Positions 62,348 through 64,000 of a stretch of 64,000 nucleotides of DNA are shown in pieces; the first letter of the stretch is position 1; every line of letters begins with the position of its first letter. The DNA is from an uncultured Flavobacteriaceae bacterium (lineage in GTDB: Bacteria > Bacteroidota > Bacteroidia > Flavobacteriales > Flavobacteriaceae). The position numbers and the translations under genes were made by a program. The notes below the pieces were generated by a model, which was not told the origin of the DNA, ran no database searches, and worked only from the letters and a program-made list of their open reading frames with translations. Location: NCBI GenBank assembly GCA_947503005.1, contig CANNCA010000001.1, forward strand, positions 248,001 through 312,000, given 5' to 3'.

Positions 62348-62956
62348 ATGGCTTTTGAATTACCAAAATTACCCTATGCTTATGATGCATTGGAACCACA
62401 TATTGATGCCAGAACCATGGAAATACATCACACTAAACACCACAATGGATATACTGCGAAGTTGAATGCCGCAATAGAAGGCACTGATTTAGAAGGAAAG
62501 TCGATTGAAGACATTTTGACCAATCTAGATATGTCAAATGGTGCGGTAAGGAACAATGGCGGAGGCTTTTTCAACCATTCACTTTTTTGGGAAGTAATGT
62601 CTCCTAACGGCGGTGGAACGCCTACAGGTGCTTTCGCCGATGTGATAAATGATGCTTTTGGATCCTTCGATAGTTTTAAGGAAAAGTTCAGCACAGCTGC
62701 AGGCACGAGATTTGGTTCGGGTTGGGCTTGGCTTTGTGTACATAAAGGAGGCAAAGTAGAGGTGTGTTCAACACCAAATCAAGATAATTCGTTGATGCCG
62801 AATACAGGATGTGGTGGACACCCTATCCTAGGCTTGGATGTTTGGGAGCATGCCTATTATCTGAACTATCAAAATAGAAGACCAGATTATGTACAGGCTT
62901 TTTTCAATGTCATTAATTGGGACAAGGTTTCAGCGCTTTATGAAGCTAATAAGTAA
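62348..62956 (+). CDS. sodA: Superoxide dismutase (Fe/Mn family)
   Basis: 202 residues. Metal ligands H27, H77, D164 and H168. The second-sphere Gln is at the C-terminal position (Q145, [10 protein letters not shown]) and the N-terminal position is Gly ([10 protein letters not shown]), as in Mn-type enzymes, so Mn or cambialistic use is likely. It removes superoxide in the cytoplasm. A TAAATTTG box at 62304-62311 matches the -7 consensus. It ends at a good terminator. Confidence 0.95.
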
Positions 62957-62980
62957 TCTGCAAGCCGAAAACATAATGTA

Positions 62981-63016
62981 AAAAAGCCCCTTCACTCATA
63001 GTGAAGGGGCTTTTTT
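62981..63016 (+). terminator. Terminator after sod
   Basis: A perfect 10-bp stem (GCCCCTTCAC with its complement), 5-nt loop, flanked by A and T runs, so it could work from both sides. Confidence 0.85.
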
Positions 63017-63034
63017 GATTTGAATTTAAAATAG

Positions 63035-63104
63035 AAAAGGGCGGAGAAGCCTCCACCCTTTTCGTCCCAAATCTTACCATAAACTTAACCTACTTATGCT
63101 ATGG
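63035..63104 (-). ncRNA. Repeated small RNA element, copy A
   Basis: Read on the minus strand: CCATAGCATAAGTAGGTTAA at 63104 downwards, then a hairpin GGGTGGAG-GCTT-CTCCGCCC followed by T residues. The arm difference gives a U-G pair in the minus-strand RNA but a C-A mismatch in the plus-strand RNA, supporting the minus strand as the transcript. Promoter-like box at 63110-63117. About 70 nt. Confidence 0.6.
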
Positions 63105-63109
63105 CAATA

Positions 63110-63140
63110 CTAAATTACTGGTATTGTGCCAAATAAAAAA
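63110..63140 (-). promoter_or_regulatory. Promoter-like element for small RNA copy A
   Basis: Minus strand TAATTTAG (one mismatch to TAnnTTTG) ends 5 nt before the RNA body, with a T-tract about 18 nt upstream. Confidence 0.45.
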
Positions 63141-63240
63141 GAAATTTTAGGATTTTTTAAGAGCAATATTTGGTCAAAAACACATGCTTCCGCCCTTAAA
63201 AGTGAGGTTAACCTTGTTAAATACTGGGGTTTTCATAATA

Positions 63241-63310
63241 AAAAAGGCAGGGCTTAGCCCCACCTTTTTTCCCCAAATCTTACCATGAACTTAACCTACT
63301 TATGCTATGG
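63241..63310 (-). ncRNA. Repeated small RNA element, copy B
   Basis: Minus strand: a 40-nt body (63310-63271) identical to copy D, followed by the hairpin GGTGGGGC-TAA-GCCCTGCC and T residues. The arms have two G-U pairs in the minus-strand RNA and two mismatches in the plus-strand RNA. Promoter box at 63316-63323. About 70 nt. Confidence 0.65.
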
Positions 63311-63315
63311 TCCTC

Positions 63316-63347
63316 CAAAAGTAAGGTATCATTTGACTATTAAAAAA
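63316..63347 (-). promoter_or_regulatory. Promoter-like element for small RNA copy B
   Basis: Minus strand TACTTTTG, an exact TAnnTTTG, 5 nt before the body; T-tract 18 nt upstream. Confidence 0.55.
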
Positions 63348-63438
63348 GGTTTTAGTTAAACGTCAGTATACTTGGTTGAAATGCTTTTCTGATTTTTTTC
63401 GCACCCTAGAGAATGCAAATGTGAGGGTACTTAAAATA

Positions 63439-63488
63439 TAAAGGCGGAGCATTGCTCAGCCTTTATCCCCAAATGGTATCATGGAGCA
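63439..63488 (-). ncRNA. Degraded copy C of the small RNA element
   Basis: Keeps the hairpin (TAAAGGCTGAGC arm, one internal mismatch) and the adjacent ATTTGGGG of the body, but the rest has diverged and no TAnnTTTG box is found at the expected place. Probably inactive. Confidence 0.45.
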
Positions 63489-63680
63489 TTGAAATCGATA
63501 TCGTATTAAAAGTTGATCTCGAATTCATTTACCGACTATGGTTCTATAACGTCGGTTCATCGAATTGTGCTGTTTACCTCGATTATAGTTACTGGAAAGT
63601 GTTTCCCTTGGGTTTCGTTGGTTTGCACAGCCGTAGCCGTCAATTTTAATTAGTCGCAATCCCGAGAAGTTTATAAAAAT

Positions 63681-63749
63681 AAAAAGGCGGAGCATTGCTC
63701 CGCCTTTTTCCCCAAATCTTACCATGAACTTAACCTACTTATGCTATGG
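63681..63749 (-). ncRNA. Repeated small RNA element, copy D
   Basis: Minus strand: the same 40-nt body as copy B (63749-63710), then a perfect hairpin GGCGGAGC-AAT-GCTCCGCC and T residues. Promoter box at 63755-63762. The frame starting at the ATG in the body runs to 66 codons here but stops after 10 in copy B, so a shared peptide is unlikely. Confidence 0.65.
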
Positions 63750-63754
63750 TTTCA

Positions 63755-63787
63755 CAAATGTATGTTAGTGGGTTGCATCTAAAAAAA
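63755..63787 (-). promoter_or_regulatory. Promoter-like element for small RNA copy D
   Basis: Minus strand TACATTTG, an exact TAnnTTTG, 5 nt before the body; T-tract 18 nt upstream. Confidence 0.55.
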
Positions 63788-64000
63788 TTCCTTGTTGAAC
63801 TTCCTATTAATGGGTTAAAGTGTAGTTTGGTTTTAAATGAACCAATATTGTAGCATTAAATTTTGTTTTTGTTGATGGGGAAAATCAGACTTTCCTATGA
63901 TTCAGCAGCATTTTTTTGCTGGTTGATTGTCTGAGCAGAGGCGAGTGAGCAGTCTCTGATTTAGTCGGGAATAATTCAGCTGTCAGATTTGAATTTCCGC
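63788..64000. other. Right end of window, no gene seen
   Basis: No convincing coding frame. A CAGCA/TGCTG inverted repeat around a T-run lies near 63905-63922. The next gene, if any, starts beyond the window. Confidence 0.4.

Follow-up and report, generated by a model that had tools for sequence, protein, structure and literature searches.

Four repeated segments lie in tandem near the end of the window, by which we mean the whole 64,000-nucleotide stretch analyzed here from an uncultured Flavobacteriaceae bacterium. The question they raise is whether they are genes for a small RNA (sRNA) and, if so, how that RNA acts and is controlled. An earlier note on this DNA had described three good copies and one degraded copy, and direct reading of the minus strand confirms that count (Table 1); three copies were also picked up by a repeat search of the window. 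A further intact unit lies beyond the window end, at 312038–312108 of contig C1 (64038–64108 in window numbering), and the 23-nt core, sought with up to three mismatches, occurs in the organism's own genome in the four intact array units only. Read on the minus strand, a unit comprises a T-tract, 17–18 nt, a TAnnTTTG-like box, exactly 5 nt, the body, a G/C hairpin and a T run. The conserved spacing that the note had claimed for each good copy thus holds, with a gap of 17–18 nt between T-tract and box and with a box in unit A that fits TAnnTTTG less well than those of units B and D. The body begins with CCATAGCATAAGTAGGTTAAGTT[C/T]ATGGTAAGATTTGGG in the good copies, and in each intact unit a predicted promoter is followed by some 40 nt that hardly vary and then by a terminator. 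Units B and D, which the note had found identical over 40 nt, are in fact identical over their first 45 nt.

Table 1. Positions of the array units, their predicted promoter elements and neighboring features (window numbering, except for the antisense gene, which is given by contig).
Feature	Position	Strand	Remark
Unit D, middle type: sRNA body and terminator	63680..63749	minus	predicted +1 near 63749
−7 box of unit D, TAnnTTTG-type, TACATTTG	63755..63762	minus	
Unit D upstream box at −50, TTCAAC	63794..63799	minus	
Unit D upstream box at −70, TTTAAC	63814..63819	minus	
Unit C, degraded copy	63437..63492	minus	hairpin retained, most of body gone
Unit B, middle type: sRNA body and terminator	63240..63310	minus	predicted +1 near 63310
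−7 box of unit B, TACTTTTG	63316..63323	minus	
Unit B upstream box at −50, TTTAAC	63355..63360	minus	
Unit B upstream box at −70, TTCAAC	63375..63380	minus	
Unit A, last type: sRNA body and terminator	63034..63104	minus	predicted +1 near 63104
−7-like box of unit A, TAATTTAG	63110..63117	minus	inside CAATACCAGTAaTTTAGT, conserved in last-type promoters
Fe/Mn superoxide dismutase gene	62348..62956	plus	convergent to array; Pfam Sod_Fe_N, Sod_Fe_C
Inverted repeat with A/T tails	62980..63016		between dismutase gene and unit A
Antisense gene, own genome	C9:122347-122481		

The predicted folds of four units are better than those of dinucleotide shuffles (z of −2.42 to −4.35, with 0 to 7 of 200 shuffles equal), and these four are predicted to form a 5′ hairpin. 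Against a covariance model of the family (R1, built from 26 units), the four intact units of the own genome score 84.6–92.6 bits, having themselves been used in model building, and the degraded unit C scores 22.7 bits (E 0.013). The inverted repeat on the dismutase side of unit A reads as a bidirectional terminator. No Rfam family matches the array RNA: at gathering score, the window yields tRNA alone. The suggestion in the earlier note that the units belong to Flavo-1 (RF01705) is not supported, as this family gave no gathering-score match in the window and none of the 67 matches obtained for 62900–64000 at E values up to 5 belongs to it. The best matches below threshold are trpB (34.5 of 59 bits) and RmaA (32.0 of 57), and a match to BTnc231 (32.1 of 80.4 bits, E 1.8e-4) spans unit A and the dismutase-side hairpin. 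We found no description of the array RNA in the open literature, including by the letters of its core; subscription papers and supplements were outside the scope of that search.

The note had also proposed a covariance-model search over Flavobacteriaceae genomes, and this search places the RNA across the family. R1 matches 238 of 299 family genomes (212 of 249 good genomes and 191 of 236 genera) and has no match in the other 61. In an order-wide sample, 34 of 246 genomes match, 32 of them Flavobacteriaceae and two borderline and outside the family (30.6 and 31.0 bits, E 0.007–0.009); about 206 of the 246 lie outside the family, judged among the matches listed. A class-wide sample gave matches in 3 of 149 genomes, all Flavobacteriaceae, and none outside the family. 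Samples of more than 40 genomes were searched with stricter filters, so weak relatives may be missed. A search of the genome collection for the exact 20-nt core gave at least 117 stretches, and the genera among the matches listed include Maribacter, Zobellia, Flagellimonas, Aquimarina, Kordia, Robiginitalea and Cellulophaga. Because loci were collected through it, the invariance of the core in them is partly due to selection. The 5′ stem pairs are almost invariant, and three terminator pairs are changed on both sides. A viral origin was set aside, the exact 22-nt core being missing from viral contigs.

The array usually sits between an amidotransferase gene, which lies upstream on the same strand, and the convergent Fe/Mn superoxide dismutase gene. 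Pfam finds only GATase domains in the amidotransferase, which we take to be purF-like. Among 115 loci, some of which end too early to show their neighbors, the purF-like gene is found at 92, the dismutase gene at 90 and a helicase gene at 86. Sorting 302 units by the letters after the linker gave 108 first, 116 middle, 61 last and 17 other units, and none of the 115 loci contradicts a first–middle–last order (for example, FML at 24 loci, F at 23 and FMML at 18). Middle-to-last spacing is 181–224 bp in 56 pairs, mostly 193 or 204–207 bp. Three genomes of the window's genus carry copies on contigs other than that of the main array (loci L188, L190 and L191); these have a AGACAGGG/CCCTGTCT-type hairpin and likely represent a separate locus, in draft assemblies.

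We surveyed promoters and terminators in 372 units, which come from 141 loci and are distinct in their upstream DNA. The pattern TTNRNC, sought at −70 and −50 with a tolerance of 4 bases, is present at both positions in 121/134 middle units, 93/133 first units and 21/22 units of a divergent genus (g127), or 235 of these 289, and in 0/82 last-type units, among them unit A, the promoter of which is without either box. In the shuffle control the pair occurred at a mean of ≤0.2, and at other offsets it occurred ≤8 times. A TAnnTTT[GA] box lies at −13 in 116/134 middle and 22/22 g127 units, is scattered over −13 to −15 in first units (51/133) and is mostly absent from last units. A terminator-like hairpin closes 371 of the 372 units, with 158 distinct stems; this tally used 105-nt bodies, and 75-nt bodies with a somewhat different rule gave 266/372. 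The −70 and −50 boxes are 20 bp apart, start to start. LytTR sites, according to the parts of the sources available to us, are imperfect direct repeats of 8–13 bp, about 12 bp apart and upstream of the promoter, and several g127 boxes read CCGTTCATC, the same as an AlgR site at rhlI in that material. An activator of the LytTR type possibly acts at these boxes; the suggestion rests on motif likeness only, and no regulator was identified.

What the RNA might pair with was sought by complementarity, and no mRNA target was found. When two mismatches are allowed, sites for the linker complement in the own genome barely outnumber those for the reversed control (62+70 versus 56+52); when one is allowed, most genomes have fewer sites for the 13-mer AACTTAACCTACT than for its control. 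Two single sites were also noted. An exact complement of the 13-nt core at C2:622318 of the own genome (L183, near 2518) looked like coding sequence, and a complement of the sRNA core in another genome (G535:C1:129288; L186, near 1988) has a stop codon on one side and a terminator on the other and could be a target or sponge within a 3′ UTR. Cis regulation of the neighboring genes was examined by RNAduplex of the 40-nt body against their start regions, with 20 shuffles each. The dismutase (mean z −1.16, 25% of 89 below −2) and purF-like genes (−0.91, 14% of 66) gave a weak signal that we do not take as proof; mean z was 0.11 for the helicase (86 genes), −0.22 for the PfkB-like (54) and −0.15 for the KBL-like genes (39).

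A partner emerged when complements of core and linker were searched in 25 relatives and the sites then read. The linker 13-mer complement is enriched in the own genome (11+6 versus 4+2 in the control), and the core 13-mer search with one mismatch was no cleaner than its controls. Reading these sites led to a putative antisense gene that is present in six genomes of the window's genus, the own genome included (C9, near 122418). Two conserved blocks, TTAGCATACAAAA and CTTGACAACT, lie upstream; a T-tract comes next, then a −7-like box, the 13-mer CCCAAATCTTACC, a stretch of about 20 nt that can pair with the sRNA hairpin and a terminator belonging to this gene. A covariance model of this gene (R2), cut at 55 bits in the gap between matches at 55.5 and 43.6 bits, finds it in 45 of 299 family genomes, the next match scoring 43.6 bits; a tally of 111 genomes at E 0.01 was dropped, as matches below 44 bits resemble chance terminators. 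Two of the 45 (G050 and G270) are additional members of the window's genus, which brings the number of carriers to at least 8 among the 14 genomes of that genus in the search panel. At 35 antisense loci (from 30 of the 45 genomes plus 5 relatives), yidC is a neighbor in 27, a fasciclin gene in 25 and either in 32. In one genome (G129, C9:58500-59700), four antisense genes stand in tandem about 200 bp apart, a layout that mirrors the sRNA array. We rejected a promoter motif common to sRNA and antisense genes: TTNRNC is at both places in only 1 of 38 antisense genes, which have different conserved blocks, TTAGCATAC and CTTGACAACT, at distances similar to those of the sRNA boxes. No antisense gene was found by exact 12-mer in 21 genomes of the divergent genus, where a diverged gene could be missed; of 18 sites read there, 9 are sRNA units and 9 are unrelated. 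All 45 antisense-bearing genomes belong to the 82 of 299 with at least three sRNA copies, a tie that may reflect shared ancestry.

Predicted duplexes of sRNA and antisense RNA have energies of −45.2 to −54.2 kcal/mol in six genomes of the window's genus; 1000 shuffled partners of the own pair gave a mean of −24.0 and a best of −40.0. Pairing is nearly perfect within this genus, and elsewhere mainly the first 13 nt are retained: CCCAAATCTTACC is exact in 23 of 38 antisense genes, the rest drifting, and the second antisense block decays outside the genus. When these 38 antisense RNAs were compared with 200 shuffles each, 24 beat all shuffles and 14 did not, 29 were beaten by at most one, and two (L266 and L271) were beaten by 47–48. 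The partner in this test was the sRNA of the window genome, not that of each genome itself.

Taken together, we consider it probable that the array encodes a multicopy trans-acting sRNA of about 70 nt, with a promoter for each copy, that is countered in one lineage by a dedicated anti-sRNA. The earlier note had inferred multicopy transcription units making a trans-acting RNA, and the hairpins, the breadth of occurrence, the fixed locus and the antisense partner support that inference. The units, terminators, box positions, conservation across the family, locus, antisense gene and complementarity can all be read from sequence; transcription, start sites, the activator, the direction of control and mRNA targets are inferred, with no expression data. 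In the mechanism that we propose, the array would supply several copies of one RNA, each from its own promoter. A DNA-binding protein would activate first- and middle-type copies at the −70 and −50 boxes, and the last copy would be under a different promoter, such that the total dose would add up from two supplies, one regulated and the other under separate control. The RNA is predicted to consist of the 5′ hairpin, a single-stranded linker, AAGAUUUGGGG, and the terminator. The anti-sRNA, expected to start near CCCAAATC, would pair through its 5′ end, CCCAAAUCUUACC, with this linker, and in the window's genus pairing would spread over most of the 40-nt body. Engaging the linker first, it would act as a sponge or trigger decay, so that the sRNA is sequestered or destroyed and its targets are relieved. 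We assign the role of antagonist to the antisense RNA because the sRNA is older and more widespread.

An unlikely alternative, though the best placed of those that we weighed, is that the array RNA chiefly binds a protein, as a decoy or riboregulator, and that the antisense RNA merely blocks this binding. The 5′ stem and loop are nearly fixed rather than covarying, as for a protein site (partly an effect of core-based locus selection), and no mRNA target set is visible, but the best-kept antisense block complements the single-stranded linker, which fits base pairing.

Mobile DNA may offer another link. The 13-mer of the antisense gene also opens 21 structured ends, three of them in the own genome (C1:785957, 788027 and 1016901; L196, L197 and L198). 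These three, like the ends with the same 13 nt at L222–L230, L232–L237 and L241, are about 100 bp long. Where ORFs were checked, these ends adjoin or flank tyrosine recombinase, NikA-like or relaxase genes, and no Rfam match was found in five loci tested. In many of them, the likeness to the antisense RNA extends as AT-AACTTA. Since the 13-mer itself served to collect these ends, the count says nothing on how common it is among ends of this kind; its presence may be accidental or may reflect a common binding site or sRNA pairing. In the most far-reaching reading, beside a family-wide multicopy sRNA and a purpose-built anti-sRNA gene, the linker is matched in the same genomes by the ends of integrase-linked mobilizable elements (13 nt exactly and most of the next ten), and such DNA may titrate the sRNA or be policed by it. 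This reading is quite speculative, and we rate it low.

The roles could also be reversed, with the antisense RNA as the working regulator and the array as its multicopy sponge. The two RNAs are mutually complementary, and sequence alone therefore leaves the direction unfixed. We nevertheless find this reversal improbable, given an sRNA in 238 family genomes against an antisense RNA in 45 and the nine non-unit 12-mer sites in the divergent genus without an antisense gene. A small peptide encoded by each unit from the conserved ATGGTAAGATTTGGG is very hard to sustain: the ATG is at a fixed place, and a 66-aa ORF begins there in unit D, but a one-base difference in the linker from group to group (AAGA in 308 units, AGA in 59) changes the frame, and the frame enters the terminator stem, which varies among units. 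Least tenable of all is a mobile or MITE-like element, the outcome that the earlier note had said would refute its reading, which copy number variation and the same-genus copies off the main array might suggest but which is contradicted by the same locus in most of the 115, a promoter and terminator retained in each unit, the single order of unit types, the absence of terminal repeats with target-site duplications at scattered insertions, and the lack of any further own-genome copy or of an exact core in viral contigs.

A multicopy sRNA with a dedicated anti-sRNA has counterparts elsewhere, of which we compare the parts of the published accounts accessible to us. In Vibrio cholerae, Qrr1–4 act via Hfq and are inactivated by the sponge QrrX (PMC9732341); both systems have sibling sRNAs with a separately encoded pairing RNA. 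Ours differs in belonging to another phylum, in having its copies side by side in a single tandem array and in a predicted duplex that, within the window's genus, takes in most of the RNA. Similarly, one sponge, CrfA, antagonizes the four homologous sRNAs SisA–D (αR8, alpha-R8) of Caulobacter crescentus, copies of which are adjacent in some genera; there, pairing uses a 10-mer motif, whereas here 13 nt are widely kept and more than 30 bp form in the window's genus (PMC12559287). One mark of sibling sRNAs with a sponge, a separate gene whose RNA is complementary to the region common to the siblings, is present here at the level of sequence. The best reading is that the array and antisense RNAs work like these two systems in kind, by analogy and without evidence of homology. 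Closer in phylogeny, FopS and GibS of Bacteroides thetaiotaomicron share with the array RNA a multicopy nature, the phylum, short length, a seed with a terminator and Bacteroidota promoters (PMC11697453). In FopS, the 5′ seed is single-stranded and the loci are scattered (PMC11697453), whereas the array RNA has a 5′ hairpin followed by a linker, a single tandem locus and an antisense partner. The FopS plan of a single-stranded 5′ seed and then a terminator, as far as it is described in the accessible text, is accordingly not seen here, a 5′ hairpin being predicted in four units. Within the family, 85 sRNAs, Rfp18 among them, have been listed in Flavobacterium psychrophilum; unlike Rfp18, the array RNA is without a third stem-loop, and one of the 85, which are itemized in supplements to a paper available to us in part, may be the array RNA (PMC9723704).

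Our analyses point to the array RNA and its matching antisense RNA as an undescribed gene regulator with a built-in off switch. If this is right, a whole bacterial family would have a conserved, apparently unnamed sRNA regulator, in a system with an input (the two-box activator), dose control (differently driven copies) and a dedicated antagonist. The Bacteroidota would gain a sponge-controlled circuit of sibling sRNAs comparable to Qrr/QrrX, and RNA regulation in this phylum, which is poorly known, would become directly testable.
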